From Richelia sp. CSU_2_1 (GTDB taxonomy: Bacteria; Cyanobacteriota; Cyanobacteriia; Cyanobacteriales; Microcoleaceae), in assembly GCA_012034575.1 (NCBI GenBank), contig JAAUPF010000034.1, positions 1 to 46,720 of the forward strand: a stretch of 46,720 nucleotides of DNA. The letters are read 5' to 3'. The notes under the pieces were generated by a model, which worked only from the letters and a program-made list of their open reading frames with translations, ran no database searches and was not told the DNA's origin. Below, piece after piece: positions 9,449-45,125 of the stretch. Numbering within the stretch: position 1 is the first letter of the stretch; each line of letters starts with the position of its first letter. Both the position numbers and the translations under genes were made by a program.

Positions 9449-9600
9449 ATTTAAATAGAAGGCTGTGATTTTCTGGGGTGCGCCCGATCGACAAGTGCAG
9501 GAATAGCGGGTCAGTCGCTGCTACAAAAACCAGCGACTACACTAAAATAAACGCTACTGTTGCGCAACTTGCTCAACCGTCTCCATCAAAAACTACAGCT

Positions 9601-15600: not shown

Positions 15601-15699
15601 ATTGTGAGAAAGATTGTCGAAAAACATTCGGGTAAAATAGCAGTAACATCGGTGCCAGGTAAAACTACGTTTGTGGTGTCAATTCCGATCGCAGCTTAG
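9601..15699 (+). CDS. Ser/Thr kinase-AAA ATPase-GAF-PAS-histidine kinase
   Basis: A 2032-residue trifunctional signalling protein. The N-terminal eukaryotic-type kinase has HKDINPAN (Asp128) and DFG (147-149). An AAA-type ATPase has a Walker A with Lys354 and a Walker B LDDLQWAD near 477. A long helical repeat region follows to about 1380, then a GAF (about 1390-1550) and a PAS (about 1556-1675). The histidine kinase has an H-box AHEINTP (His1732), an N-box with Asn1940, and the G-box SGLGL. The segment between the H-box and the ATP domain is unusually long. I chose the ATG at 9601 because family members start with an L-P-G-Y motif and the GTG at 9478 lies too close to the palindrome. It opens the signalling cluster; no transmembrane segment is seen. 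Confidence 0.9.
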   Translation: MLHLPGYKIFRKIYESDKCLVYRGVRSRDGIAAIFKVLKQDYPTPAELARYRQEYDILRSLNLKGVVTAYSLENYERTLAIVLEDFGGESLKRLMQERNFTLQEILSIAIQIAEILGEIHAANAIHKDINPANIVFNRNTKQLKIIDFGISAVLKPQKIASPPPTEFPESRKNTNVLEGTLAYISPEQTGRMNRSLDYRTDFYSFGVTLYEMFAKKLPFANTDPRELVHCHIAKQPIAPEKINPEIPLALSEIVMKLLAKNPEERYQSAWGIKADLEECLNQLQRCGTISEFSLGSRDIFDKFQIPEKLYGREKELATLLAAFERISQPAENKNSTAMKRREMMLVAGDSGTGKSSLVKEIQKPVTEKRGYFIAGKFDRLQQNIPYSALVKAFQGSIQQILTESETKFQEWRSKLLTALDNNAQIIIDVIPEVESIIGKQPAVEELGTTESQNRFNSVFQKFLGVFVSQEHPLVIFLDDLQWADSATLQLIQLMMARGMSEEDSENCDVSEPRAASKSSSASSEYLLVIGAYRNKEIGAEHPLLSVVEELRKDGVRVDRITLLPLTIAQVTNLIADTLRSDNVSVKPLAELVMRKTNGNPFFVSEFLKTLHAQNLITFNFPYCIQSVDNAASCPNSEPECTDNWDGCQWGWQWDIAEIEKVGITSNVVELMVNKLKQLPEATQEVLRLASCMGTDFDLPTLSIICQKSGQLISDTLQAALESGLILPVPELKGKYKFLHDRVRQAAYALIESKDKKIFHLQIGCLLWDKCDPALLADEIFKIVDRINIGITDKWILKTLIVEQEERDKIANLNLIAGKKAKASGAYGAAVKYLTVGRELLAGSSWQEQYELTLNIYVETIESAYLSGEFELVEKLADAVIEQAQTLTDKLKVYEVKIKLFAVQRRYREAIAIALQVLNRVGFSFPKAPNPSDILREMEQTAVNLTGKNIDDLINLPAMNCPDRLAAMRIGASIVPVAFHAAPQLFSLLILSQVNSSIVGGNSPVSAVFDAIYGVLLNGAFQEFESAEKFGNLALNLASKSTAKNLKCRILYVIAVGIVHGKHHVRESLSMLQEGDRTAREIGDLEIASYCAKEKFQYSYFAGQELTKLELEIADSSRTLTKRKQSHNLLCNQICHQAVVNLLGEAENPCELSGKVVEEASLLSLLAAANDRTGFHYFYLHKLILCYLFGSGQQALEVAEKFRKYLTQGTGFFTVPVFYFYESLAALAGYPEADSLARIALLKRVEKNLEKMQQFAQHSPANHLHKYYLVEAEKHRVLGENFEAMEKYDRAISLAKENKYINEEALANELAAKLYLDWGKDKIARVYLADAHYCYTHWGARAKIDELEIRYPAFLIRVNATTSINSESTTITNISKSTHTEKTFDLAAVMLASQTIASEIVLDKLLAKLMKIAIQNAGAQKGFLVLENKGRWLVEASGTIDADRIAVLQSIPIEECLPVAIINYVARSKQSLVKTNAAKHGKFTSDPYIKKHQSKSILCAPLLNQGQLIGIIYLENNLISRAFTDDRVEVLQLLSTQAAVSITNAKLYAELQESESKLTQFLEAVPVGITVHNPSGEVSYINQTGQRLLGQIGAPQATIEQLASTCPIYITGSEKPCAIEQLPALRALQGENVTADNLEVRGDSKIVPLEMHSQPIFDDKNNIVYSITAFTDISDRKQAEKLLAEYNRTLEIQVADRTHELSQALQNLQATQQELIQSEKMAALGQLVAGVAHEINTPLGAIRSSVDNLADFFNQKIYAMADFFQSLSPEAYSDLLMLLPQSQTQSIGISNREKRQFKRALARQLAKKSVPNCDTVADTLVDLGIYDKIESILPLLQNPDRAHILQKAYQLATLQKSTNTIITATDRAAKVVFALKKYSRYNCAGEKVSASITEGIETILTLYYNQIKHGVEVIRNYQDSLPPVLCYSDELNQVWTNLIHNALQAMEYQGTLTIDVGQEGNSVSVSVTDSGKGIDLEIMPRIFDPFFTTKPAGEGSGLGLDIVRKIVEKHSGKIAVTSVPGKTTFVVSIPIAA

Positions 15700-16657
15700 T
15701 TCTCTAGTTCGGGAAAATTTCAATCTAAAATCTGTAGCAGGAGTTAGGAGTTATCTGGAAAGCAGATCCAAGGTTTCAGCAATTATTAATGCCCGAATTG
15801 CCCTGGCAATTGCTATAAAATATAAGCAGCATTGCGTCCGCCATGTGGTGATGGTAGGCGAGGAGGGATATTTAGCCGGAGTCGTAACGCCAAATAACCT
15901 GCTGCACGCTTTAGATCCGGTAGAAATGCACGCTAATGTTGAGCTGTTAGAACACACAGTAGCCGAACAAACCCAGGAGTTGATGACAGTGAACGAACGA
16001 TTGCAAAAAGAAGCGATTTTAAGAACGGAAGTAGAGGAACAGTTGCGGCTTTTAAACGAAAATTTAGAAGAACAAATTAAGCAACGCACTTTAGAATTAA
16101 TTCGTGCCAACAGCCAGTTAAAGCAGGAAATCGCAGAGCGGGCAATTGCTGAATCAGAAGTACGCCGCCTCAATGCCGAACTCGAACAGCGAGTCGCAGA
16201 ACGCACGGCACAACTAGCAGCCAGCAACGCAGAATTGCAACAAGAAATTAGCGAACGCCGATTGCTAGAAGAAAAACTGCATTTTTCGGAAAATAAAGTG
16301 CGCGCCATTTTTGAAGCGATGACCGACATCGTACTCGTGCTCGATCGCCGCGGTAATGTCGAAGTTTTGCCCACAAATACGGCGGCTTTTGGCGAAGCAG
16401 ACCTAGATCTAGTCAACCAGACGATCGCGCATTTTTTTGATGACGAAAACCCAGATAACTGGTGGCTGGTAATTCAGCAAGTTTTAGACACCCGAGAAAC
16501 GTTCAATTTCGACTACAGCTTAAAAGTTGGCGGTCGAGAAGTTTGGTTTGCAGCCTGCATTTCTGTACTCTCAAAAGATGCAGTGATTTGGGTAGCCCGC
16601 AATATCAGTCTCCGCAAATTAGCAGAGTCAGCCCTGTGCAAAAAAATGAAGAACTAG
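15671..16657 (+). pseudogene. CBS fragment-coiled coil-PAS, 5' part of a split histidine kinase
   Basis: This frame starts with no good initiation codon (TTG at 15671, inside the previous gene). It encodes the end of a CBS domain (VRHVVMVGEEGYLAGVV), a long coiled coil with repeated AERT and QEIAER-like units (about residues 95-205), and a PAS domain. It ends at a TAG just after an A7 run at 16640-16646. One extra A there would continue without interruption into the kinase frame that follows. The first CBS half appears to be missing as well. It is likely the front of a CBS-PAS-histidine kinase broken at both ends, unless the A7 run allows slippage. Confidence 0.7.
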
Positions 16658-17661
16658 CTAACACTTTGCAAGAACTGCAACGCACCCAGCAAGAACTCGT
16701 TCAATCGGAAAAAATGGCAGCCCTCGGACAGCTAATTGCCGGAGTCGCCCACGAAATCAATTCTCCCCTAGGGGCAATTCGATCGTCCGTTCAGAACATT
16801 GCCGACTTCTGGGTCGAAAACTTGCAACAATTGCCGGCATTTTTCCAGAAACTATCCCCAGAAAGGCAGCAAGATTTCTTTGCCCTACTGCGCAGGTCGA
16901 GCCAAGAAGGCGATACATTATCCAGTAAAGAAAAGCGCCAGGTGAAAAAAGCAGTCCAGCGCCAATTAGAAGCAGAAAAAATTGACGGTGCTGACAGCTT
17001 GGCCTGCACTTTATTAGATATCGGTATTGTAACGGAAATCGCAAGTTTTTTCCCTTTGTTGAAAGACAGGGACAGTGCAAATATTTTACAAACCGCTTAC
17101 CTATTTGCCTCCGTGCAGCAAAGCACTAAAAATATTGCTACAGCTACCGATCGCGCCGCCAAAATCGTTTTTGCTTTAAAAAGTTACTCTCGTTACGACC
17201 AATCCGGCAGCAAAGTCCTCGCTAATATTACTGACGGCATTGAAACTGTTTTAACACTTTATCACTACCAAATCAAACAAGGCGTTGAAGTAGTCAAAAA
17301 ATATGGTAACGATCTGCCCTCTGTGTTATGCTATCCTGATGAACTAAATCAAGTTTGGACAAATTTACTTCACAATGCTTTACAAGCAATGGGCAACAAG
17401 GGGGTATTAACAATTGATGTAAAACAGCAAGCAAGCAGTATTTGCACCAGCATTACCGACACAGGTGGAGGCATACCTCCCGAAATTATGCCGAGAATCT
17501 TCGAGCCATTCTTTACCACTAAGCCCCCTGGCGAAGGCAGCGGATTGGGATTGGATATAGTGCAGAAGATTGTTGAAAAACATCAGGGCAAACTGCAAGT
17601 CGAGAGCGCGCCGGGAAAAACCAAATTTACTGTTGAATTACCCATTAAAACTAGCGATTGA
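16636..17661 (+). CDS. Histidine kinase module, 3' part of the split gene
   Basis: A 341-residue kinase core from a GTG at 16636, which overlaps the end of the upstream frame by 22 bases. The frame is open back to 16462, but that part is a shadow of the upstream PAS. Coiled coil, H-box SEKMAALGQLIAGVAHEIN, a long helical insert, N-box NLLHNALQAM, and G-boxes DTGGGIPPE and GEGSGLGLD are all intact. It closely resembles the kinase end of the preceding giant protein, including the insert, so the two modules are paralogues. It could be made by reinitiation at the GTG or by slippage at A7. Otherwise it is a silent remnant. A lone receiver gene follows 53 bases later. Confidence 0.75.
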   Translation: MQKNEELANTLQELQRTQQELVQSEKMAALGQLIAGVAHEINSPLGAIRSSVQNIADFWVENLQQLPAFFQKLSPERQQDFFALLRRSSQEGDTLSSKEKRQVKKAVQRQLEAEKIDGADSLACTLLDIGIVTEIASFFPLLKDRDSANILQTAYLFASVQQSTKNIATATDRAAKIVFALKSYSRYDQSGSKVLANITDGIETVLTLYHYQIKQGVEVVKKYGNDLPSVLCYPDELNQVWTNLLHNALQAMGNKGVLTIDVKQQASSICTSITDTGGGIPPEIMPRIFEPFFTTKPPGEGSGLGLDIVQKIVEKHQGKLQVESAPGKTKFTVELPIKTSD

Positions 17662-28508: not shown

Positions 28509-28536
28509 TTGACATCAATTTTTTGTATGCTATAAT
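28509..28536 (+). promoter_or_regulatory. Sigma-70 consensus promoter
   Basis: TTGACA at 28509-28514 and TATAAT at 28531-28536 with a 16-base spacer and an extended -10 TG. This is the best promoter in the window. Because it overlaps the first possible ATG of the following frame (28523), translation must begin further down, at 28574. Confidence 0.7.
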
Positions 28537-28573
28537 AGTGATTCCGAGTGCCTTAAGATCGACAAGTAGATAT

Positions 28574-30736
28574 ATGATATCTGTTTTGAACCCGATAGCC
28601 GAGCGAAACGGTTTTAAAGTTCTCATAGTTGAAGACAATCGAGCTGAAGGGGATCTGATTGAGGAATTATTATTAGAAACCAATGCAGCCAGACAATCGG
28701 CTCGCAGGCTGGCAGAAAAATTTTCAGTAGGTCGCGCTTCCCGTCTCAGCGAAGCTTGCGATATTTTAAGGGCAGAAAAATTTGATGTCATTTTACTAGA
28801 CCTTTCCCTGCCAGACAGCCAAGATTTTAGTACAATTGTCAAGATTCAACAATATAGCATAAATACTCCGATCGTCGTGCTCACCGCCCGCAACGACGAA
28901 GAACTAGCAGTACAGTCAATTCAAGCTGGGGCGCAGGATTATTTAGTAAAAAGAAACATAGATAGCGAAGTATTGAGGCGATCGATCCGCTACGCAGTCG
29001 AGCGCCACTACAATCAAGAAGCCCTGCGCAAAAGCGAAGAAAAATATCGATCGGTAGTTGAGAATTCCCTAGTCGGCATTGCCATAATTTCCCCGCCTAT
29101 TTTGCGCTCCCAAATCCATAATTGGCAGTGTTTGGAAGTTAACGACGCCCTGTGCAATTTGCTCGGATACGATCGCGAAGAACTGCTGCAGATGAATTGG
29201 GAAAATTTGAGTTTTACGGAGGAATGGCAAGCCAGCTTAGAACAATTAAATAGAATTATTTCCGGTGAAATCGACGGCTACGTTTTAGACAAAAGGTGGC
29301 GCAGAAAAGACGAGAAAATAGTTTACACGCGAGTTTCCCTGCGCTGCATCCGCCGCCCGGACGGATCGATCGACCGGATAATTAAAGTAATCTTAGACGT
29401 GAGCGATCGCCAGCGCTACGAAATCCAACTCAAAGCATCGAAACAATTTTTAAAACACACAATTAATGCCACTCCCGACCCTATATTTGTTAAAGACGAG
29501 CGGCACCGCTGGATCGTATTGAACGACGCTTTTTGCGAGTTGATGGGCAAACCGCGACACGAACTGATCGGCAAGTCGGGCTACGACTTTTTGCCCGCCA
29601 CGACAGCCGAAATTTTTTGGCAAAAAGACGAAGAGATATTTCAGACCGGCATCCCCGACAAAACCGAAGAAAAATTTATCGATCGCGCAGGCAAAGAACG
29701 CATCATCTCCACCAAAAAAACGGTATTCCAAAAAGCAGACGGCAAAAAAATGTTAGTCGGCACAATTCGCGATGTCACCGAATATAAGCGGCAACAAATA
29801 GCCTTAGAAAACAGCGAATCTCGGCTGCAAAACATCGCAGTCAACCTGCCGGGAATGATTTATCAATTCCGATTGGATGCGAGCGGAAATCAATCATTTG
29901 ACTGCGTTTCTTCGGGCAGCAAAAATCTCTATCATTTAGACCCAGAAGAAATCGAAAACAATCCCGATCTACTATTTAGGTGCATTCATCCAGACGACCT
30001 TTCAAACCTGCACCAATCGATCGAAATTTCAGCAGCCACGTTGCAACCCTGGTACCACCAGTGGCGGCATATCGTATCCGATCGAGTGAAATGGCTGCAA
30101 GGTGCATCCCGCCCGGAAAAGCAAGCCAATGGCGATATAATTTGGGACGGTTTGGTAATGGATGTTACCGAATTAAAACAAACCCAGCAAGAGCGCGATC
30201 GGCTGTTTAGCATCTCCCTAGACTTACTCTCCATTTCTGGTTTTGACGGCTATTTCAAGCGCTTAAACCCCGCTTGGGAAAACGCATTTGGTTACAGCAG
30301 GGTCGAATTTCTCGCTCAACCTTTCATCGAATTCGTACATCCAGAAGATCGAGAAAACACCCGCACTACATTAGAAACACTCAAACTCGGCAATCCCATA
30401 ATAAACTTTGAAAACCGCTATCTTTGCAAAAACGGCAGTTATAAATGGCTGTCGTGGACGGCATCGCCATTTGCAGAAGAAGGTTTAATCTATGCCGTAG
30501 CCCGCGACGTGACAGCGAGCAAACAAGCCGAAGCAGAATTGCGCAAAAGCGAAGCTACCAACCGCGCTCTTTTAGATGCCATACCAGACATGATGTTTCG
30601 GTGTCGGGCAGACGGCACTTTAATCGACTTCAAACCCGCAAAAGACTTCCAGGAAACCGTACCGCAAAACATATTTATCGGCAAAAAAGTACAAGATGTA
30701 TTGCCGCAATTTTGCCGATCGAATCGTTTCAAGTAA
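28574..30736 (+). CDS. Receiver and PAS array, 5' part of a frame-split sensor kinase
   Basis: 720 residues: a receiver with intact Asp76 (LLDLSLPDS), then PAS domains beginning near 158, 290, 415 and 540, and the first half of another near 665. The reading frame leaves the PAS fold at [12 protein letters not shown] and stops. The next frame picks up the fold exactly (FADRIVSSN, then the YQLQVKG strand). A run of TTTT at 30710-30713 has one T too many for a single frame; with three T residues the two parts join into one protein of about 2150 residues. It is either a real split, a pseudogene or a base-call error. The start was chosen because the promoter covers the earlier ATG. Confidence 0.85.
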   Translation: MISVLNPIAERNGFKVLIVEDNRAEGDLIEELLLETNAARQSARRLAEKFSVGRASRLSEACDILRAEKFDVILLDLSLPDSQDFSTIVKIQQYSINTPIVVLTARNDEELAVQSIQAGAQDYLVKRNIDSEVLRRSIRYAVERHYNQEALRKSEEKYRSVVENSLVGIAIISPPILRSQIHNWQCLEVNDALCNLLGYDREELLQMNWENLSFTEEWQASLEQLNRIISGEIDGYVLDKRWRRKDEKIVYTRVSLRCIRRPDGSIDRIIKVILDVSDRQRYEIQLKASKQFLKHTINATPDPIFVKDERHRWIVLNDAFCELMGKPRHELIGKSGYDFLPATTAEIFWQKDEEIFQTGIPDKTEEKFIDRAGKERIISTKKTVFQKADGKKMLVGTIRDVTEYKRQQIALENSESRLQNIAVNLPGMIYQFRLDASGNQSFDCVSSGSKNLYHLDPEEIENNPDLLFRCIHPDDLSNLHQSIEISAATLQPWYHQWRHIVSDRVKWLQGASRPEKQANGDIIWDGLVMDVTELKQTQQERDRLFSISLDLLSISGFDGYFKRLNPAWENAFGYSRVEFLAQPFIEFVHPEDRENTRTTLETLKLGNPIINFENRYLCKNGSYKWLSWTASPFAEEGLIYAVARDVTASKQAEAELRKSEATNRALLDAIPDMMFRCRADGTLIDFKPAKDFQETVPQNIFIGKKVQDVLPQFCRSNRFK

Positions 30737-33700
30737 CAAATTAAATGTCAAAATTGGCGAAATTCAAATCGTAGAATACCAACTGCAAGTGAAGGGCAAA
30801 CTGTGCGATTGTGAAGCGAGAATTGTCTTGTGCACGGAAGACGAAATTATCGCGATCGTCCGCGATATTACCGAACGCAAACGATCGGAATCAGAATTCC
30901 AGCGGCAAGCAGCAGCGATGGCCGCAGCTTCCGACGGCATCGGCATCATCAACGATCGCTCGGAAGTAATTTATGCCAACGCAGCTAAACTTAAAATTTA
31001 CGGCTACGAATCCGCAACAGAAATGTTGGGCAAAAGCTGGAAAATATTTTACCAAGGCGAAGAATTGCAAAGGTTCGAGCGGGAACTCATGCCCGATTTA
31101 GCCCGCAAAGGATACTTGAGCACGGAAGCTATGGGATGCCGCCGCGACGGTTCGGAATTCCCCCAAGAAATTTCCTTAACAATGCTTTCAGGCGGCGAAA
31201 TAGTTTGCATTGTCCGCGATATTTCCGCCAGAAAAGAGGCAGAAGAACAACTGCGATCGAGCCAGCGGTTCGCCCAACAAATTGCAGAAGCCAGCCCCAA
31301 TATTTTGTACGTTTATGACATCATAGAACATAAAACTATCTATATTAATGCTTCGGTCGAACAGATTCTCGGCTACACCGTAGAAGAAATTCAGTCAATG
31401 GATACCGAGATGATGGCATCTTTAATGCACCCCGAAGATTTAAGAAAAATGCCCAGTTATCTGCAGCAAGTAGAAACCGGTAGTGAAGGCGATATCTTTG
31501 AAATCGAATACCGCATGAGACACAAAGACGGTTCTTGGCGCTCGATAGTCAGTCGAGATACCGTATTTGAAAAAACTGCAGGCGGCAAATTAAAACAAGT
31601 TCTCGGTACGGGAACGGATTTTACAGAAAGCAAGCAAGCAGAAGACGAAATTAAGTTGCTGTTGGCGGCAACTCAAGCAATTAGCGAATCGGTAGATTTC
31701 GAGAATGCGATCGCCGATATTTTGCGGTTGCTGTGCAATAAAATTGGTTGGAATTTTGCCGAAGCTTGGATGCCGGCACAGGACGGTACAGTATTGGAAC
31801 TGAGTCAGAGTTGGTACGCAGGCGATCCGGAGTTGGAGAAATTCGGACGCGAAAGCAAACTGTTTGCCTTCGGGCCGGGAGTCGGAATGCCGGGACGAAT
31901 TTGGCTGACCAAACAAATAGAATGGAAAGCAAATGTTTCCGATGCCGAAAATTCAGTTTTCTTGCGATCGCAAATAGCACAGGGATTCGGATTGAAAGCG
32001 GCCTTCGGAGTGCCAATTCGGGCCGGTACAGAGGTGATGGCAGTTTTAGTATTTTACAAGCGCGATACCTCCACCCTAGAACCGCGTTTGGTAGAATTGC
32101 TCAAAGCAGTAGCAACTCAGTTGGGTTCCCACATCCAGCGCAAACAAGCAGAAGAAGAATTGCGCAAAAGTGAAGAACGCTGGCAGTTAGTTCTTAAGGG
32201 CAATCAAGACGGAATTTGGGATTTGAACCTCAAAACAAATCAAGCTTTTCGATCGGCCCGCTGGAAAGAAATTATCGGTTATTGCGAGGAAGAAATCGAC
32301 ACCTGCAATACCGAATGGACTGGGTGCATTCACCCCGAGGATGCCGAACAAGTGCAAGCAGCCATCAAAAATTACCTCGATCGCCAGACCCCAAATTACG
32401 CCGCCGAATACCGCTTGCTGTGCAAAGATGGCACCTACAAATGGGTGCTCGCCCGCGCTCAAGCCGTGTGGGACGAAGCTGGAAATCCCCTGCGCATGGT
32501 AGGTTCCATGACCGATATCAGCGATCGCAAACAAGCAGAATTAGCCCTGCTGCAAGTCACTCAAGCTGTTGAAAGTACCAGCGACGCGATCGCGATCGCC
32601 GACTTGAAATGGCGGTCTATTTACCACAACCAAGCCTTTATCCAGCGCTACGGCTACACTGTTGAAGAACTCAATGCAGCCGGAGGTTCGGCGGTGATGC
32701 ACTCCGGGCGCAAACTTTGGAAGCAGGTATTAAAAACCATCCGCAGCGGCCTGTCCTGGTGCGGCGAAATCGAACTCAAAACCAAGGACGGCGAAGCAGT
32801 AACTGCTCTCGTGCGAGCTGACAGCATCAAAGATAAAAATCACAATTTAATCGGCTTAATTAGCGTGATTACCGATATCACCAAACGCAAAGCAGCAGAA
32901 GTAGCTTTGCACCAGCAAGTAAAGCGGGAACGGCTGGCAGTCGCCATGCTGGAAAGGATTCGCTCTTCTTTAAATTTAGAAGAAATTTTGACTAAAGCTG
33001 TGGAAGAAGTGCGCCATTTCTTGCAAGTAGACCGCACTGTTATTTACAGATTTAACCCCGATTGGAGCGGGTTTATAGCTGTGGAATCGGTTAGCGAAAA
33101 TTGCTTCTCAATCGCGGGAATGGAAATTTACGACCCCTGTTTTGGAGAAGGCTACGTTCCCCTCTACAAAGATGGGAGAATTCGAGCAACAGAGGATGTT
33201 CATAATGCCGGCATTGCCGACTGCTATTTAAATTTGTTGGTCGGGCTCCAGGTAAGGGCGAATCTGGTAGTACCGATTTTGCAGGGCGAAAAATTGTGGG
33301 GGTTGTTAATCGCCCACCACTGCGCGGGCCCCCGCCCCTGGCAGCAATTTGAGTCAGAGTGCCTCAAACAGTTGGGGGTGCAGTTGGCGATCGCGATCCA
33401 GCAATCGACGCTGTTTGAACAAGCACAAAACGAAATTGCCGATCGCAAGCAAGCAGAAATTGCCCTGCAATTAGCAAAAGAAGCTGCCGAAGCTGCCAGC
33501 AAGGCTAAAAGCGAATTTCTTGCTAACATGAGCCACGAACTGCGAACGCCCCTCAACGGCATTTTAGGATACGTTCAACTGCTAAAAACTGATAAAAATT
33601 TAACTGTCGAGCAACAGGAAAATCTGAACAGCGTCCAGCACTGCGGCGAACATTTGCTGACACTAATTAATGATGTTTTAGACTTAGCAAAAATCGAAGC

Positions 33701-34994
33701 TAGCAAAATGGAACTTGCACCGTCTGAGGTGAATTTCCCCGGCTTTGTCAAAAGTATTGTCGCTCTGTTCCAAATGCGGGCAGCTCAAAAAGGCATTGCG
33801 TTTACTTGGGTCCAAGTATCTTCACTGCCAGACTGCATTTTAGCTGATGAAAAAAGGCTGCGCCAAGTTTTGATTAATTTGCTCGGCAATGCAGTTAAAT
33901 TTACTAAAAGCGGTGGGGTGACATTTAAAGTCGGCTATGTAGATAGTTGGGAAAATTTAGCAGAAAATTTAGCGGAAAATTTAGCGGAAAATTTAACAGG
34001 TCGATCGGCCGCAACCGCAGCAAATTCCGGCGAATCTCCCCCCCGCGCAATTCGCTTTCAAGTCGAAGATACCGGCATCGGTATCCCACAAAACAAACTG
34101 CAAGAAATATTTTTGCCCTTCCACCAAGTGGGCGATCGCAGCAATTTCGTTGAAGGCACCGGACTGGGACTTTCCATCAGCCAAAAATTAGTCAAAATGA
34201 TGGGCAGCGAAATTCGAGTCCGCAGCAATCCCGGCAAGGGCAGCACATTCTGGCTGGACATAGAGTTGCCCCCAATTGCCCAATGTTCTGAACTCGCCAC
34301 CGCCCAAGAAAAAAGGCGGCTAGTCGGTTTTGTCGGCCTCAAACGCAAATTGCTAGTGGTAGACGATCACGAAGTCAACAGATCCATGTTGCACAGGCTG
34401 CTTTCTCGTTTGGGCTTTGAAATCGCCCTCGCCAGAGACGGCGAAGACTGCTTGCACCAAGCACTTGAATTTCGACCCGATCTGATTTTAATGGACTTGC
34501 TGATGCCCGTAATGGACGGTTGGGAAGCTACCAGGCGGCTGCGACAGTTGCCGGAATTTAAAAATGTGGTTATACTCGCACTTTCAGCTAGCGTTTACGA
34601 GGCAACCAGACAGGAAAGTATGCTTGCAGGCTGCGATAATTTTCTCACCAAGCCCATTCAAACCAGCCAGCTTTTAGAATTGTTGCAAGTGCATTTGGCC
34701 CTAGAATGGGTTTACGAAGACGGGTCAGGAGGCAAAAAGCGGAAATCTCCAAATCTCAAAGCACCATCAGACCTCTCTGCTGCTGCAACGGCAATGGTCT
34801 CTCCAGATGCCCAATCAGTCTTGACTTTGTTAAGATTGGCTGCAATGGGCGACATTGAAGCTATTTGGGAGGAAAGTGCTAAACTTGAAAATTGCGACCC
34901 GCAATTAGTACCTTTTGTCAACCACCTGCGCCAACTTGCTAAAGGATTTCAGCTCAAGCAAATTAGAGATTTTCTGAAGCAACATTTACCTTAG
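30696..34994 (+). CDS. PAS-GAF-DXCF cyanobacteriochrome hybrid kinase, 3' part
   Basis: 1432 residues. They comprise the end of the split PAS, two PAS domains (about 60-190 and 190-315), a plain GAF (320-480) and two more PAS (490-620, 625-750). A cyanobacteriochrome GAF (about 755-920) follows, with DPCF Cys815 and chromophore-site Cys843 (DCYLNLL). HisKA has His947 ([15 protein letters not shown]), the ATPase domain has GTGLGLSIS, and the receiver has Asp1267 ([11 protein letters not shown]). A helical tail closes the protein. The GAF should bind a bilin and sense light. Four in-frame ENLA units lie in the ATPase domain. Without repair of the frameshift, this part could only start at the overlapping ATG 30696. 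Confidence 0.88.
33951..33998 (+). repeat. Four in-frame copies of a 12-base repeat in a kinase gene
   Basis: Units of GAAAATTTAGCG encode ENLA repeated (the last is ENLT), between the N-box and the first G-box of the ATPase domain. The unit is a close relative of the repeat at 26301-26383. Confidence 0.85.
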
Positions 34995-36712: not shown

Positions 36713-39700
36713 ATGATTTCCGTTCTTCAGACAAATTCAATAGGTGCTGGCTTGAAAATCCTGTTAGTAGAAGAGAGTGCAGAAGATACCGAATTAATTC
36801 GCGAAATGCTGGGAGAAAACACTAGAGTACCGTCAATTGATGTGACTGCAACTGTTGGTTTCAGCGAAGTTGACGCAATTTTAAATCGGGAAAATTTTGA
36901 TGTAATATTGTTAAATATACCGCAGCCTGAGGGTCAAGAATTTGATAATTTTTTCAGGATGCTAGAGAGCAAGATAGATATTCCGATCGTCCTTTTAACA
37001 CTCCCCGAAAATGAAGAACTAGCCATCGAGTTGATTGCTGCGGGGGCTGAAGATTATCTGATAAAAACCGAAGCAGACAACCGACTGCTAGTGCGATCGC
37101 TGCGGTGCGCTTGCGCTCGCTACAAAATGCGGGTAAAACGACAGCTAAGTCAAGAAAAATACCCGGCGGCTGTTGACAATCTCCTGCCAGAAGAGACGAC
37201 AGAAACTATCAAAGATATTACCGCGCAACTTTTAGCTGCACAGGAACTGCAAGTTAGTAAAAACCTTTTAAATTATACGATCGATGCAGTCGATGACTCG
37301 ATTTTTGTCACAGACGAACAGCACCGCTGGATACTATTAAATGACGCTTTTTGTAAGCTATTTGGCAAGCAGCGCGAAGAACTGCTGGGCAAGTGCGATC
37401 GCGACTTTTTACCGCAAACAGAAGCCGCTATTTTGGGGCAAAGTGACGCACAGGTATTTATGACGGGAGAAGCACGCGACAGCGAAGAAATATTTACTGA
37501 TTTTCGGGGCCAACAGCACATTTTATATACAAAAAAAACCGTATTTAAAAATAACGACGGCAGTCAACTTTTAGTGGGAACTATCCGAGATATCACTGAA
37601 GAAAAAAATCAGCAAATCGCGCTGAAAAAAAGTGAAGAGAGGTTGTCGCATCTAGCAGCCAGCTTGCCGGGAGTAATCTTTCAATTTTTACTCGCAAAAA
37701 ACGGTCAAAAATCTTTTATTTACTTATCTCATGCCTGTCGGGAATTGTATGAAATAGCAGCAGAAGAATTTATGCAAAATTCGGAGATTGCTTTTAAATT
37801 AATTCATCCAGACGACCGCCAAAAATTTGAAGAATCTATGAGAATTTCGGCACAACATATGCAACCTTGGCAGCATGAATGGCGCGCGATTATGCCTTCA
37901 GGAAAACTTAAGTGGCTGCAAGGATTTTCGAGACCGGAACGAGTTAAGTTTGCATCAGAAATAGCCCAGAAAGGGGATATAATTTGGGAAGGTATCGTGC
38001 TGGAAACTACAGCGTTAAAACAGGCAGAAGCAGCTTTGCGGGAGAGCGAAGAAAGATTTCGATCGCTCGTGGAAAATATCCCCGGCGCTATCTACCGGTG
38101 CCTGTACGATGCTGGTTGGCAGATGGAATTTATTAGCGATGAAATAGAGACAATTAGCGGCTATCCGGTAGGGGATTTTATTCGCAACAGGCGGTTGAGT
38201 TTTACCAGCATCATCCATCCAGAAGACTCGGAAACGGTCGATCGCGCGGTCGGAAAAGCGGTAGATTCGAGACAGCCTTACTATGTGGAATACCGGATCG
38301 TTCGCGCTGACGGTGCAGTGCGGTGGATATCGGAAAGAGGCCGGCCGACTTACTGTAAAGATGGGCTGCTGTTGTGGCTGGATGGAGCGATTTTTGATAT
38401 TACCGATCGCAAACAAGCCGAACTGACTTTGCAGCAAGTAACGCAAGCGATAGAAAGCGCTAGCGATGCAATTGCGATCGCCGATTTGGACGGCTATTCA
38501 ATCTATCACAATCAAGCATTTATTCACCGCTACGGTTACAGCGTTGAAGAATTAAATAATGCCGGCGGTCCCGCTGTCATGTACGTCAAATCTCAACAAT
38601 TGAGAAAGTTATTTATGACTCTGCGGAAGGGCAAATCGTGGAAAAGTGAAATCAAACTCAAAGCTAAGAATGGGGAAATTATAGATGCTCAATTGCAAGC
38701 TGACTGCATCAAAAATAGTGAGGGGCAGCCTATAGGAATGATGGCAATTATTACTGACCTCACGGAAATAAAACGCGCTGAGTCGGCACTGCTTCTCAGT
38801 CAAGAACGATTGCAGCTAGCAGTATCCAGCAGCTCTTTGGGGCTGTGGGATTGGAATATACTTACAGGTGAAACTTATTTTGATGCGCAGTGGAAAAAAA
38901 CTTTGGGTTATGAAGAAAATGACATTGAAAATAACTACTCATCTTGGGAAAGGTTGCTGCATCCCGAAGATAAAGCGCGGGTAATGGAAGCACTAAAAAA
39001 ATATTTAGAAGGTCGTACAGATATCTACGAACTTGAATTGAGAATGCTGAATAAAGCGGGTAATTGGCAGTGGATTATGGGCGTGGGCAAGATAGTCGAG
39101 TACAGCGAATTCGGCACCCCGGTGCGCATGACAGGCACTCACAAAGATATCAGCGCGCGCGTTGCAGCAGAAGCAGAAAAAACGCAGTTAATCGCATCTT
39201 TGCAAAAACTAACTTACCAGTTGCAGTCAGCACAAACAGTCGCGCGGCTGGGTAATTGGGAATTCGATGTTGAATCGGGAATGATTGCTTGGTCTGATGA
39301 ACTATTCCGAATTCACGGTAAAGTGGGAAATCAAGCACCTACCTATGAGGAATTATTACAGCAAATTCATCCCGACGATCGATCGAAATTTGCAAGTGTG
39401 GTGCAACAAGCCACGATCGAAGGAACAGCCTACGATATCGACTACCGCGTCTATCTACCATCAGGAGAAATCAAGTACATTAATGCTAAAGGAGAGATCG
39501 TTAAAAATGAATTCGATCGCGTAGTTGGCTTATTTGGCACTGCAATGGACATTACCGATCGCAAACTTGCAGAAACTGCTTTGCAAGAAAGCGAAGAACG
39601 GTTTCGGGCCGTCTACGAACAAGCGGCGATCGGGATTGTCCAAGTGCGCCCTACAGGCGAATTCTTGAAGGTAAATCAAGGGTTTTGTAAAATTGTCGGC

Positions 39701-41443
39701 TACTCGCCAGCAGAACTTAGTTTGCTAAGGATTGGAGATATTTCTTACCCGGCAGATTTAGAGGTCGATCGCGAGTCGGAAAGGCGAATGTTAGCGGGAG
39801 AAATTTTAAATTATTCTGTTGAAAAACGCTTTATTTGTAAGAACGGTGCTTTGATTTGGACGAATGTTACTGTATCTTTAGTGCGGGATATTTCTGGCGA
39901 ACCTAGTTACATGATTGGCGCGATCGAAGATATTAGCGATCGCAAGCAAGCAGAGGCAGCACTGCGACAGCAATTAAAGCGGGAGAGGCTGATAGTAGCA
40001 ATGCTGGAACGCATTCGATCGTCTCTCAATTTAGCAGAAATTTTGACAAAAGCAGTTGCAGAAGTGCGACATTTCTTGCAAACAGACCGGACAATCATTT
40101 ATCAGTTCAATCCCGATTGGAGTGGGGTGGTAGCTGTCGAATCAGTGGGTGATAATTGGCAGCAAACTGCGGGAAGTGTCATTAAAGATTCTTGTTTTAA
40201 AGATACCTACGGCTCTAAGTACAAACACGGCAGGGTAAAGGCGATCGGCGATATTTACAGCGCTCAACTACCTGAGTGTTACATTAATTTATTGGCTCAG
40301 TTTCAGGTAAAAGCTCACCTAGTAGTACCCATAGTGCAAGGCGATATGCTGTGGGGTTTGCTGATCGCTCACGAGTGCGCTGGCCCTCGCCCCTGGCTGG
40401 AATTTGAAATAGAATGCTTGAAACAAATTAGCGTGCAATTGGCGATCGCGATCCAGCAATCGATGCTGTTTGAACAAGCACAAACTGAAATAGCCGATCG
40501 CAAGCAAGCAGAAGCAGCATTGCAAGAATCCGAAGCCCGAGAGAGATCGAAAGCATTGCAGTTAGAAGTAGCAATTAACAAACTCAGAACCACTCAATCT
40601 CAGCTAGTTCAAAATGAAAAAATGGTCAGTTTGGGTCAGTTAGTTGCCGGAGTAGCTCACGAAATTAATAACCCAGTAAGTTTTATTCACGGCAATCTCA
40701 ATCCGGCTCGAAATTACGTTTTAGATTTGCTAGATTTGATTAAAATTTACCAGAATTACCTTCCCGATCCACCGATCGCAGTGTTAAATAAAATCAATGA
40801 AATCGACCTAGATTATGTAGCTGAAGATTTGCCAAAACTTTTCAATTCAATGCGAGTAGGAACCGAGCGAATTATCGAGATTGTCAAATCGCTGCGCAAT
40901 TTTTCACGCTTGGACGAATCCGATCGCAAGTTTGCCAACATTCATGAGGGAATTGAGAGCAGTTTAATGATTTTACAAAATCGCCTGAAATCCCACAACA
41001 GCCGTCCGGCGATTCAGATAGTTAAAGATTACGAAAAACTGCCAAAAATAGAATGTTTTCCCGGTCAATTAAATCAGGTATTTATGAATATTTTGATTAA
41101 CGCGATCGATGCTTTGGAAGAACGGGACAAGCTGCGGGAAGCTGAAGAGTGCAAGATTTTTCCGAGTACAGTTACGATTCGCACTTATCTTGATGATAGA
41201 GAAATTGCAGTTATATCGATTGCTGACAATGGGCCCGGAATACGGGAATCTGTAATTTCGAGGCTGTTCGATCCGTTTTTTACTACTAAACCTGTTGGGA
41301 AAGGTACGGGTTTGGGACTGTCAATTTCTCACTCAATTATAGTCGATCGGCACGGTGGCAATTTGCGCTGTATTTCTGCCCTGGGAACAGGAGCGGAATT
41401 TTTAATTGAAATTCCAGTGCGACAGAAAACAGTTGACAGTTGA
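36713..41443 (+). CDS. Pseudo-receiver-7xPAS-DXCF cyanobacteriochrome-histidine kinase
   Basis: 1576 residues. The N-terminal receiver has EES in place of the acidic pair and Asn68 for the phospho-acceptor (VILLNIPQPEG), so it is probably not phosphorylated. Seven PAS domains follow (starting near 188, 305, 445, 570, 700, 830 and 960). A cyanobacteriochrome GAF at about 1100-1265 has DSCF Cys1161 and Cys1189 (ECYINLL). The kinase has His1316 (GVAHEINNPVSFIHGN), N-box NILINAIDAL and GTGLGLSIS. There is no C-terminal receiver. Its PAS and GAF blocks are paralogous to those of the split kinase upstream. The stop codon falls in an ACAGTTG repeat. A likely light-sensing kinase that would need a partner regulator in trans. 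Confidence 0.9.
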   Translation: MISVLQTNSIGAGLKILLVEESAEDTELIREMLGENTRVPSIDVTATVGFSEVDAILNRENFDVILLNIPQPEGQEFDNFFRMLESKIDIPIVLLTLPENEELAIELIAAGAEDYLIKTEADNRLLVRSLRCACARYKMRVKRQLSQEKYPAAVDNLLPEETTETIKDITAQLLAAQELQVSKNLLNYTIDAVDDSIFVTDEQHRWILLNDAFCKLFGKQREELLGKCDRDFLPQTEAAILGQSDAQVFMTGEARDSEEIFTDFRGQQHILYTKKTVFKNNDGSQLLVGTIRDITEEKNQQIALKKSEERLSHLAASLPGVIFQFLLAKNGQKSFIYLSHACRELYEIAAEEFMQNSEIAFKLIHPDDRQKFEESMRISAQHMQPWQHEWRAIMPSGKLKWLQGFSRPERVKFASEIAQKGDIIWEGIVLETTALKQAEAALRESEERFRSLVENIPGAIYRCLYDAGWQMEFISDEIETISGYPVGDFIRNRRLSFTSIIHPEDSETVDRAVGKAVDSRQPYYVEYRIVRADGAVRWISERGRPTYCKDGLLLWLDGAIFDITDRKQAELTLQQVTQAIESASDAIAIADLDGYSIYHNQAFIHRYGYSVEELNNAGGPAVMYVKSQQLRKLFMTLRKGKSWKSEIKLKAKNGEIIDAQLQADCIKNSEGQPIGMMAIITDLTEIKRAESALLLSQERLQLAVSSSSLGLWDWNILTGETYFDAQWKKTLGYEENDIENNYSSWERLLHPEDKARVMEALKKYLEGRTDIYELELRMLNKAGNWQWIMGVGKIVEYSEFGTPVRMTGTHKDISARVAAEAEKTQLIASLQKLTYQLQSAQTVARLGNWEFDVESGMIAWSDELFRIHGKVGNQAPTYEELLQQIHPDDRSKFASVVQQATIEGTAYDIDYRVYLPSGEIKYINAKGEIVKNEFDRVVGLFGTAMDITDRKLAETALQESEERFRAVYEQAAIGIVQVRPTGEFLKVNQGFCKIVGYSPAELSLLRIGDISYPADLEVDRESERRMLAGEILNYSVEKRFICKNGALIWTNVTVSLVRDISGEPSYMIGAIEDISDRKQAEAALRQQLKRERLIVAMLERIRSSLNLAEILTKAVAEVRHFLQTDRTIIYQFNPDWSGVVAVESVGDNWQQTAGSVIKDSCFKDTYGSKYKHGRVKAIGDIYSAQLPECYINLLAQFQVKAHLVVPIVQGDMLWGLLIAHECAGPRPWLEFEIECLKQISVQLAIAIQQSMLFEQAQTEIADRKQAEAALQESEARERSKALQLEVAINKLRTTQSQLVQNEKMVSLGQLVAGVAHEINNPVSFIHGNLNPARNYVLDLLDLIKIYQNYLPDPPIAVLNKINEIDLDYVAEDLPKLFNSMRVGTERIIEIVKSLRNFSRLDESDRKFANIHEGIESSLMILQNRLKSHNSRPAIQIVKDYEKLPKIECFPGQLNQVFMNILINAIDALEERDKLREAEECKIFPSTVTIRTYLDDREIAVISIADNGPGIRESVISRLFDPFFTTKPVGKGTGLGLSISHSIIVDRHGGNLRCISALGTGAEFLIEIPVRQKTVDS

Positions 41444-42002: not shown

Positions 42003-45000
42003 ATGTTTGCAAGCGAGTTATTAATGTCGCCGCACATTTCAATACTTACTATGGCGCAAATGCCAGTAGAAATCGATATTCCGATCGAACATCCAAATAT
42101 CGAAGGGTTGATGTTTCTCAGCCCTCAGTTTTTTGTAGCATTAATCGCCGGAGTTATTATGGCTTTCGGGTTCCAATTTCTGCTAACAAATTTCTCGATC
42201 GCGGCTAAAATATCCAATTGGGACGAGGCTTTGCCCGATGACGATGATGAGGAATCCGAGAGTTTGGGAACGAAAATTCGCAAGACTGAAGGCTTAGTAG
42301 GAGGTTGGGTTTTAATTACTGTCAACATTGCCTTATTTTTGGCTTGTTTTTTAGCAGTAAAACTAACTTCGATCGCCAGCGTAGATGGAGCGGCAATTAT
42401 CGGAGTTGTTATCTGGTCAGCGTACTTTTTAACCCTAGTATGGCTCGGTTCTAGCGCCGTAGGTTCCTTGCTGGGTTCTTTAATTAAAACTGCATTTTCC
42501 GGCTTTCAAGGTGTCATAGGAACGGCCGGTACAGCGATTAGCGGCAAGATGGCGAGCGATCGAATGGTAGATACTGTAGAAGCATCTGTAGCCGCCGTCC
42601 GCCGCGAATTGAGTTCGGCTGTAGACCCCGACAGCATTCGCGAAACGCTGCAAGATTATGTCGGTTCTTTGCAATTACCGAAGCTGGATGTTAAGGAAAT
42701 TCGCAGTCAATTTGAAAAGTTGTTGGGCGACCCAGATCTCAAATCTTTGGCAGGAAGTGATGTTTTAAAAAATGTCAACCGCCAGACTTTTGTAGATTTA
42801 ATTAGCAGTCGCACTGACTTTTCTCAAGAGGAAGTAGAGCGCATTGCCGACCAACTTCAAGGCGCTTGGCAGCAAACATTTGGCAAGCAGCAAAAAGATG
42901 CAAATTTGGAATTAATTGATTTTCTCAAATTTGCGGCTCCCGATTTGCTCAAATCTGACGAACTTAACGCTAAACTATCTCAAATTTTGGAAAGTAGAGA
43001 TAGCAAATCGCAGTCCGGCAGCGGCATGAAACAAGCAATGCAGTTGGGTGTTGAGACTTTGGTAGGAACGGTTTTATCGCGCACAGATCTGTCAGATGTG
43101 GATGTGGAAAAAATTTCCGGGCAGTTGCAAAAACTGACAGCAAAAGGCACTGAAACAGCTAAATCTTTGGCTGCTCAAGTCGGCGACAAAGTTCCTGCTT
43201 TACCTTTCAATACAGCTAAGGCTGATGTGGAAAACTATTTGATGAACGCTCAACCTTGGCACTTAAATAGAGAAACCATCAAGCAGGAATTTAGGGATGT
43301 AATTTACGACCCCGAAGCATCTCCGGGAGCTGTTTTGCGCCAAGTAGAAATGTTGAATCCCGACTATTTTGCGGGAATTCTCGGCCGTCGCGAAGGATTC
43401 AGTCAAGAACAGGTGGCGGAAATTGCCGAACAACTTGAAAGCGTCCGCCAAGAAGTTTTAGAAATCCTGCGCGATGCTGCGGGTCAAGAACAGTCTCAAG
43501 ATTTGCGCAGTCGGATTGAAAATTACTTGCGATCGACTGGCAAAGAAGAATTGAATCCTGAAGGTATCGAACGGGATTTTCAAGCACTTTTGGAAGATAG
43601 AGATGCCGGATTTGAAGCTTTGCGCGATCGCCTTTCGCAATTCGATCGCGATACTTTGGTACAGTTACTCGGTCAGCGAGAAGATTTCAGCCCCGAGGAA
43701 GCAGACCAATTAATCGGTCGCCTGGAAAGTACGCGCGATCGGGTAATTTCTCAAGCCCAAGAATTGCAAGAACAAGCGAAATCTAAAGCACAAGAATTGC
43801 GGCAAAGAGTAGAAGAATACCTGCACAATACTAACAAGGAAGAACTCAATCCGGAGGCGATCGAACGCGAATTTCAAACGCTATTTAGCGACCCGCAAGC
43901 CGGATTTAAAGCTTTGAGAGAACGCTTATCTCAATTCGATCGCGATACTCTGGTACAGTTGCTTTCGCAGCGCCAAGACCTCAGCGAAGAGCAGATAAAT
44001 CGGGCGATCGATCGCATCGAATCCGCGCGCGACAGCATCATTCACGCGCCGCAAATCGCTGCCGATAAAGCCAAACAGCAGTACGAAGAAATCACTGCTA
44101 AAATTGGCGAATATTTGCGGAATACTAACCTCGAAGAACTCGATCCTGAAGGCATCAGTCAGGACTTGAGCAAATTGTTGGAAAATCCCAAAGAAGGTGC
44201 TTTAGCGCTGCGAGAAAGACTTTCTCAAGTCGATCGCGAAACCTTGGTAAAACTGCTCGCACAACGGCAAGATTTGAGCGAAGAACAGATAAATCGCACG
44301 ATCGATCGCGTGCAAGATGCGATTCGCAGCATCGTGAAATCTCCCCGCCGCTTGGCATCTCGCGCTCAAACCCAAGTCCGGGATTTCCAAAGCAGTTTGG
44401 AAAATTACTTGCGGAATACCGACAAGGAAGAACTCAATCCCGATGGCATCAAACGCGATTTGCAGTTGTTGTTTAACGATCCGTCCGTGGGGATGCAAAG
44501 TTTGACTGAAAGGCTCAAGCATTTCGACCGATCGACTTTGGTAGCCCTTCTCTCGCAGCGCGAGGATATTTCCGAAGAGGAAGCTAACGAAATTGCCGAT
44601 CGAATTGAATCCGTGCGCAACCAATTTGTCGAACAAGTTCAAATGGTGCAGGACAAATTTCAGTCAGCAATGGACAGCATTTTTGCAAAAATTCGGGATT
44701 ACCTCAATTCGCTCGATCGGCCGGAACTCAACTACGAAGGTATCAAGCGGGACATCCGCAAAGTATTTGACGACCCGCAAAGCGGATTGGATGTAATTAA
44801 GGAACGTTTGAGTCAGTTTGACAGACAAACTTTAGTTGCCTTAATTAGTTCGCGCCCCGACATTTCCGAAGCCCAAGCCAACAAAATTATCGACCAAATC
44901 GAAGGAGCTCGGGACAGCGTTTTGTCGCGATCGGAGCGCCTGCAAATGGCAGCGAAAAAACGCATCAAAGAAGTCAAGCAAAAGGCCAAGCAGCAAGCAG

Positions 45001-45125
45001 AAGACGCGCGGGAAGCAGCCGCCGCTGCTGCCTGGTGGCTGTTCGGTACTGCACTGACTTCTGTAGTTGTTTCAGCTTTGGCCGGTGCGATCGCCGTAGG
45101 CGGTATTTCCGGTTTGTTTGGATAA
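42003..45125 (+). CDS. Membrane-anchored protein with 98-residue helical repeats
   Basis: 1040 residues. Three predicted membrane helices are near 42-62, 100-120 and 130-150, with an acidic loop (LPDDDDEESES) between the first two. A long soluble part follows, then a last hydrophobic Gly/Ala segment (about 1015-1037). The soluble part has five clear repeats starting near 506, 604, 702, 800 and 898. The period is exactly 98, with the pattern ENYL, EELNPEGI, RLSQFDRDTLVQLL and a DLSEEQ helix. More diverged copies lie near 410 and 225-290. Repeat ends are coiled-coil like. I do not recognise the family; transport annotations would be unsupported. The start has GGAGGT five bases before the ATG. 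A terminator follows. Confidence 0.85.
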   Translation: MFASELLMSPHISILTMAQMPVEIDIPIEHPNIEGLMFLSPQFFVALIAGVIMAFGFQFLLTNFSIAAKISNWDEALPDDDDEESESLGTKIRKTEGLVGGWVLITVNIALFLACFLAVKLTSIASVDGAAIIGVVIWSAYFLTLVWLGSSAVGSLLGSLIKTAFSGFQGVIGTAGTAISGKMASDRMVDTVEASVAAVRRELSSAVDPDSIRETLQDYVGSLQLPKLDVKEIRSQFEKLLGDPDLKSLAGSDVLKNVNRQTFVDLISSRTDFSQEEVERIADQLQGAWQQTFGKQQKDANLELIDFLKFAAPDLLKSDELNAKLSQILESRDSKSQSGSGMKQAMQLGVETLVGTVLSRTDLSDVDVEKISGQLQKLTAKGTETAKSLAAQVGDKVPALPFNTAKADVENYLMNAQPWHLNRETIKQEFRDVIYDPEASPGAVLRQVEMLNPDYFAGILGRREGFSQEQVAEIAEQLESVRQEVLEILRDAAGQEQSQDLRSRIENYLRSTGKEELNPEGIERDFQALLEDRDAGFEALRDRLSQFDRDTLVQLLGQREDFSPEEADQLIGRLESTRDRVISQAQELQEQAKSKAQELRQRVEEYLHNTNKEELNPEAIEREFQTLFSDPQAGFKALRERLSQFDRDTLVQLLSQRQDLSEEQINRAIDRIESARDSIIHAPQIAADKAKQQYEEITAKIGEYLRNTNLEELDPEGISQDLSKLLENPKEGALALRERLSQVDRETLVKLLAQRQDLSEEQINRTIDRVQDAIRSIVKSPRRLASRAQTQVRDFQSSLENYLRNTDKEELNPDGIKRDLQLLFNDPSVGMQSLTERLKHFDRSTLVALLSQREDISEEEANEIADRIESVRNQFVEQVQMVQDKFQSAMDSIFAKIRDYLNSLDRPELNYEGIKRDIRKVFDDPQSGLDVIKERLSQFDRQTLVALISSRPDISEAQANKIIDQIEGARDSVLSRSERLQMAAKKRIKEVKQKAKQQAEDAREAAAAAAWWLFGTALTSVVVSALAGAIAVGGISGLFG

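Follow-up and report, generated by a model that had tools for sequence, protein, structure and literature searches.

The window (the whole 46,720-nucleotide stretch of DNA analyzed) carries on its forward strand a hybrid histidine kinase with a predicted cyanobacteriochrome GAF domain. The kinase lies in two reading frames, and a related GAF domain is located in a second kinase ORF farther downstream. Residues are numbered either by ORF 30696-34994 or by GAF position, where GAF position n corresponds to ORF residue n + 749. The locus is organized as follows.

28523..30736, + strand: 5′ part of the kinase, containing REC and PAS domains and read in a different frame from the 3′ part
30696..34994, + strand: 3′ part of the same hybrid histidine kinase (1432 aa), with PAS repeats, GAF_2, PAS, the cyanobacteriochrome GAF, HisKA, HATPase_c, and REC (Pfam)
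32943..33461, + strand: predicted DXCF-type cyanobacteriochrome GAF domain (Pfam GAF, PDB sequence matches, AlphaFold, Foldseek)
33132..33143, + strand: DPCF motif, whose Cys (the second Cys) is residue 815 (codon 33138-33140), aligned to D492-P-C494-F495 of TePixJ
33222..33227, + strand: canonical Cys843 (codon 33222-33224) and Tyr844 (33225-33227), forming a CY pair at the place of C522-H523 in TePixJ
33261..33263, + strand: Asn at GAF position 107 (ORF residue 856), at the place of TePixJ N535, near ring D
33504..33701, + strand: HisKA, directly 3′ of the GAF (Pfam PF00512, 83.9 bits)
33846..34271, + strand: HATPase_c (Pfam PF02518, 89.6 bits)
34353..34685, + strand: C-terminal receiver domain (Pfam PF00072, 87.6 bits)
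39998..40513, + strand: paralogous DXCF GAF (DSCF, ECY) in the kinase ORF 36713-41443, 70% identical to the first GAF

The earlier note had described the kinase as split. Two frames are indeed present in this genome, but the break is absent at that place from all 15 relatives with enough upstream DNA, in which the 5′ part, the GAF, and everything up to the 3′ end share one stop-free frame of about 2160-2200 aa. Near position 30709, the window has two bases fewer than the four relatives compared. The contig comes from a draft assembly (370 contigs, 86% complete, 6.6% contamination), in which a sequence error and a real mutation would look the same at this site. The frame break, unique to the window, could mean that the kinase is a decaying pseudogene here and that the GAF has a role in relatives only. 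We regard this as unlikely: the 3′ part extends over its full length without a stop, the dN/dS of the GAF is about 0.11 against the ortholog L031 (0.11-0.15 against five relatives), and an assembly error is possible. The 3′ piece alone carries the GAF, HisKA, HATPase, and REC. Upstream DNA is truncated in three relatives; among them, L047 shows a separate frame change, located 3′ of the GAF. Along the orthologous kinases of L031-L047 and L077, identity jumps between blocks in the ten pairs compared, which suggests, for these chosen pairs, a mosaic kinase gene shaped by recombination between strains.

The Pfam GAF match spans residues 760-901 of ORF 30696-34994 and agrees with the position previously given for the domain (32925-33420). 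The DPCF motif comprises residues 813-816. As the earlier note had claimed, Cys815 and Cys843 are exactly 28 residues apart, and they are the only pair with this spacing among the 23 Cys of the ORF. The available text of PMC6955287 describes Cys494 and Cys522 of TePixJ, likewise 28 residues apart, as both bilin-linking, with C522 attached to C3-1 and C494 to C10 of phycoviolobilin. The asserted match to this spacing is borne out, as the stretch from DPCF to Cys-Tyr aligns with TePixJ (PDB code 3vv4) without a gap. A search of all six frames of the window with the pattern D.CF.{26}C[HY] gives two matches, the first GAF and the paralogous GAF (at 40187).

We compared the GAF with solved structures by sequence and by predicted fold. 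Among the best 60 of the 107 distinct PDB sequences found by phmmer at E ≤ 0.001, the top matches are 6oap (180 bits), a dual sensor histidine kinase that we take to be PPHK, and miRFP670nano (137 bits); TePixJ (118 bits) follows after miRFP670nano and two of its derivatives. An AlphaFold2 model, calculated with 22 other sequences as input (the paralog in the window plus 21 sequences of relatives), reached a pLDDT of 89.8 and a pTM of 0.86. In Foldseek, this model superposes with 6oap at a TM score of 0.83 (46% identity), with AnPixJ (PDB code 3w2z) at a TM score of 0.85, and with TePixJ (PDB code 4glq) at an rmsd of 1.2 over 141 columns. The best 50 of 415 Foldseek matches (E ≤ 0.001) are bilin-binding structures of cyanobacteriochromes or phytochromes, or engineered derivatives thereof. 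The predicted fold is thus of the phytochrome/cyanobacteriochrome GAF type.

TePixJ, the comparison chosen by the earlier note, holds for the motif and the Cys spacing, but it is not the nearest relative; the solved structures with the best scores are 6oap and miRFP670nano. Like the window GAF, TePixJ (PDB codes 3vv4, 4fof, and 4glq) has DPCF and a Cys pair 28 residues apart, shares the equivalents of D492, F495, R507, L527, and N535, and lacks the trapped-twist Phe residues by our own mapping. The two differ in that TePixJ has CH instead of CY, shows 34-39% identity in the Foldseek alignments, and is named a methyl-accepting chemotaxis protein in the PDB, whereas the output of the window GAF is a histidine kinase. 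The GAF of 6oap is also part of a sensor histidine kinase, but has DQYF without a second Cys, and CH at the canonical site. miRFP670nano shares Cys-Tyr with the window GAF, but has DRYF and no second Cys.

A tree of 114 GAFs, built from seven PDB references (TePixJ being the sole DXCF reference), GAFs of the same genome, and relatives, joins the window GAF to its orthologs in a group of 19 rows (support 100/98). The paralogous GAF and its own relatives come in at the next level (26 rows, 100/95), and the enclosing group of 76 rows (92/85, not a starred branch) contains none of the seven PDB references. A TePixJ lineage is unsupported: the branch of TePixJ is long and unresolved, and the window GAF does not group with it. 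By sequence, the window GAF appears to belong to an Oscillatoriales group without any of the seven PDB references; it is DXCF by motif, with a lineage not tied to a characterized protein, TePixJ being the only DXCF reference.

Three other cyanobacteriochrome classes were considered and rejected. The extended red/green class (XRG), defined by WXDXXL and the lack of the DXCF Cys, has its signature at the place where the window GAF shows IYDPCF, and the window GAF also falls outside the tree group of NpR6012g4 (presumably 6bhn), AnPixJg2, and Slr1393g3. Insert-Cys cyanobacteriochromes carry a loop insertion with the second Cys before DXCF; no insertion is seen at that place against TePixJ or within alignment A1. 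RcaE, of the green/red RcaE-CcaS type, groups with L010 and L026 of the same genome (99/74, not a starred branch), and the canonical site there is Cys-Leu, as opposed to Cys-Tyr in the window GAF. The DXCF type named by the earlier note is the class best supported by the sequence and structure tests run.

Within the pocket, the alignment shows that D492, C494, F495, R507, C522, L527, and N535 of TePixJ are kept in the window GAF, whereas H498, W499, H523, and Q526 are replaced by Gly, Tyr, Tyr, and Leu, respectively. Roles for most of these residues are given in the available parts of PMC6955287 and PMC7504144. Phe residues at the β1 notch, in β2, and in helix 4 are described as trapping a twisted ring D (PMC5240096, available text). 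We mapped these places by the residue numbers of that text and our alignments, with a helix-position count that is one off for UG2. The window GAF has V33 (β1 notch), I45 (β2), and L102 (helix 4) there. With all three Phe absent, a teal photoproduct is unlikely and a TePixJ-like one likelier; by this published rule, a green-to-orange photoproduct is predicted. An assignment of CY as one of the BV4 biliverdin residues was dropped, as comparison of 5zoh with 3w2z puts all four changes elsewhere.

The Tyr that follows the canonical Cys possibly changes the color, as the earlier note had suggested. As far as the available text of PMC9378818 goes, CY in red/green GAFs is tied to strong fluorescence, and no photoconversion was detected for NpF2164g5 and miRFP670nano, both CY. 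NpF2164g5, set beside the window GAF by its description, likewise has a natural CY and lacks the helix Phe (PMC9378818 and PMC6121604, in part), but belongs to the red/green lineage and has the β2 Phe (PMC6121604). The portion of PMC6336887 at hand reports that miRFP670nano was obtained from NpR3784 in 17 rounds of evolution, carries H87Y and N99I, and has the Tyr of H87Y stacked on the chromophore; its substitution list gives His87 and Asn99 for the wild type. Tyr844 might similarly stack on the bilin and lock it, so that the window GAF would bind bilin with no or poor photoconversion. The parallel extends to GAF position 107, whose counterpart is changed in miRFP670nano by N99I.

We consider such locking decidedly improbable for the window GAF. 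The published CY effects, as far as these partial sources describe them, all concern red/green-type GAFs, NpF2164g5 and miRFP670nano included. The C448S_CY variant of SPI1085g3 still gives a photoproduct, with slow dark reversion (PMC9378818, available text), which argues that CY alone does not abolish photoconversion. Moreover, both Cys are kept in His and Tyr orthologs alike (28/28), and a photolabile second Cys would serve little purpose without photochemistry. Open-literature searches, covering titles and the openings of abstracts, found no characterized DXCF GAF with CY.

The conservation of the Cys pair was followed in two partly overlapping samples. A scan of genome contigs for relatives of the GAF, with seeds that included MEIYDPCF and HNAGIADC, gave 416 relatives, the best of which, 78 distinct loci, were analyzed. 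DPCF and the canonical Cys are present in all 18 loci with at least 80% identity, where the next residue is Tyr in 10 and His in 8. At 54-80% identity, 58 of the 60 loci retain the motif Cys and 56 the canonical Cys, counts that are biased upward, as the seeds held both motifs. The 18 close loci are invariant at 98 of 172 GAF columns, including two further Cys, so that conservation of the pair among close orthologs is modest evidence. When 61 genomes of the family were searched at the protein level, 28 of the 29 genomes of the genus and none of the 32 outside it gave a match (E of 1e-85 or better); DPCF and the canonical Cys are present in all 28 genus orthologs, among them the window, with 17 Tyr and 11 His. 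Many genomes are common to the sets of 18 and 28. Those near relatives that carry names belong mostly to Microcoleus and other Microcoleaceae.

In the wider family, the canonical Cys is replaced by Pro (L099, L100, and L103) or Ser (L071), and the motif Cys by Gly (L068) or Trp (L056); some of these members are probably not two-Cys light sensors, and the fold alone is thus no proof of a light sensor. The same genome also encodes L004 (G000:C37 26723-27277), 58-61% identical to the window GAF, which has lost both Cys (DIFF, KNH) and is perhaps a blind member of the family. These losses, together with the two other invariant Cys of the 18 close orthologs, would fit a GAF that binds no bilin and whose two Cys persist through ancestry or serve to sense redox state or metals. 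That reading is very improbable for the window GAF, where the Cys positions, Asp, Phe, and spacing are all as in DXCF cyanobacteriochromes; the Cys are mostly kept in the deeper relatives (in the seed-biased counts given above), and genes of a bilin pathway are present in the genome.

The genome contains one Pfam match to heme oxygenase and three bilin reductases, each above its NCBIfam cut-off: a phycocyanobilin:ferredoxin, a 15,16-dihydrobiliverdin:ferredoxin, and a phycoerythrobilin:ferredoxin oxidoreductase. We take these to be PcyA, PebA, and PebB. At G000:C246 45855-48364 (L026, L109, and L111), two reductase genes of the phycoerythrobilin pathway adjoin the Cys-Leu GAF that groups with RcaE, an arrangement reminiscent of a chromatic acclimation locus.

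The window GAF is quite probably a DXCF-type cyanobacteriochrome that switches the hybrid histidine kinase by a putative two-Cys photocycle. This explanation builds on what the analysis shows: which residues are present and how well they are conserved, the fold predicted for the domain, the order of the domains, and the bilin pathway genes. Phycocyanobilin would be made from heme by the enzymes of the cell and bound by Cys843 at ring A, and may then be isomerized to phycoviolobilin, as in typical DXCF GAFs. In the dark state, Cys815 would add reversibly to C10 to give a blue-absorbing 15Z form. Light would isomerize the C15=C16 bond, and breakage of the Cys815-C10 bond would yield the photoproduct at longer wavelength, presumably green to orange rather than teal. 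The change could be relayed via the C-terminal helix to HisKA and alter autophosphorylation and phosphotransfer. Against this explanation stand the four TePixJ pocket residues that differ, the best-scoring solved relatives, which are single-Cys GAFs, the loss of one or both Cys in relatives that share the fold, and the frameshift of the kinase in this genome.

The paralogous GAF lies 7 kb downstream of the first and has His at the place of the ring-D Asn. Both GAFs are found on one contig in four relatives (L035/L048, L039/L049, L043/L051, and L077/L050). In the group of the second GAF, which has seven members, L049 (DSCL/QCD) and L056 (DSWF) depart from the motif, and the alignment gives L060 an additional residue there; for the first GAF, the motif is kept in every ortholog seen. 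The region around the kinase encodes several two-component proteins, along with a GGDEF protein that also has REC and GAF domains. At 42003-45125, a 1040-aa ORF has weak Pfam matches only (bacterial DNA-binding, apolipoprotein-like helices). At 9478-17661, a 2073-aa protein with Ser/Thr kinase, AAA, GAF, PAS, and histidine kinase domains is followed by two ORFs that overlap each other, 15671-16657 and 16462-17661, of which the second has HisKA and HATPase_c; we would guess that this is perhaps another gene broken by a change of frame.

That Tyr stands in place of the commoner His, as the earlier note had pointed out, is true of the window protein, but Tyr is unexceptional. It follows the canonical Cys in 28 of 83 DXCF GAFs (55 have His), a set that leaves out the 31 of the 114 rows without D-x-C-F plus the canonical Cys; by this alignment, CY appears common rather than exotic. 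Among the DXCF GAFs of the same genome, Tyr is found in 2/8, both in the window (30 of 43 GAF matches were readable). In the 19 ortholog rows, Tyr is encoded by TAC or TAT (TAT in the window) and His by CAC, and TAC is one transition apart from CAC. Merging of rows whose GAF DNA is identical reduces the 46 orthologs to 29 distinct ones, with Tyr in 17 and His in 12.

The residue at GAF position 107, the ring-D Asn, varies along with this exchange: it is Ser in 13/17 Tyr and 0/12 His orthologs (n = 29), with the window GAF combining Tyr95 with Asn107. In Fisher tests against Tyr95 over 119 testable columns of the 83 DXCF rows, columns 56, 107, 103, and 102 rank highest, but columns 170, 15, and 136, far from the pocket, are nearly as associated (p of 9e-6 to 6e-5), which points to kinship behind much of the coupling. 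When independent pairs are counted, the distant columns fade (0.2 with and 0.2 against for column 136), whereas columns 56, 107, and 103 persist. For column 107, the wide set gives 7 independent pairs (means of 4.2 in favor and 0.5 against; median p 0.22), the 19 orthologs 4/4 on the kinase DNA tree (p 0.125) and 2/2 on the GAF DNA tree, the 29 orthologs 3/3 (p 0.25) and 2/2, and the 28 orthologs 2/2 and 1/1. These sign tests, on data sets that overlap, all run in the same direction, and none is significant.

By parsimony on the midpoint-rooted backbone tree of 29 rows, all five Asn-to-Ser changes fall on Tyr branches, which account for about 73% of the total branch length, and none on His branches; two returns from Ser to Asn fall on branches that change from Tyr to His. 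The GAF tree places five Asn-to-Ser changes on Tyr branches and one on a His-to-Tyr branch. Tyr and His changed into each other at least 2 to 5 times among the orthologs, depending on the tree and data set. The GAF protein tree, which includes the trait columns, splits Tyr and His rows more than the kinase tree does; together with the mosaic kinase gene, this difference suggests that the two forms may have spread from strain to strain by recombination. The AU tests run with GAF DNA did not decide the matter (p 0.052 and 0.104), and a third group for such testing already forms one side of a branch with support 62/76. The sister pair L036 (His, Asn107) and L047 (Tyr, Ser107) differs at 11 of 172 GAF residues, both sites included.

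Positions 95 and 107, which vary in nature, are by alignment the same two that directed evolution hit in miRFP670nano as H87Y and N99I. Tentatively, and with considerable doubt, we propose that the GAF of this genus exists in natural pocket forms, His95/Asn107 and Tyr95 often with Ser107, that interconvert at least partly by coordinated changes and may set the color optimum, photoproduct lifetime, or bilin preference while the kinase stays unchanged.

DXCF cyanobacteriochromes are already well known, and the window GAF adds one from a group without the seven PDB references. Its point of interest is the Tyr/His exchange, possibly coupled to the ring-D Asn. Close strains such as those of L036 and L047 provide a natural His/Tyr series in which one could directly measure what CY does within a two-Cys photocycle.
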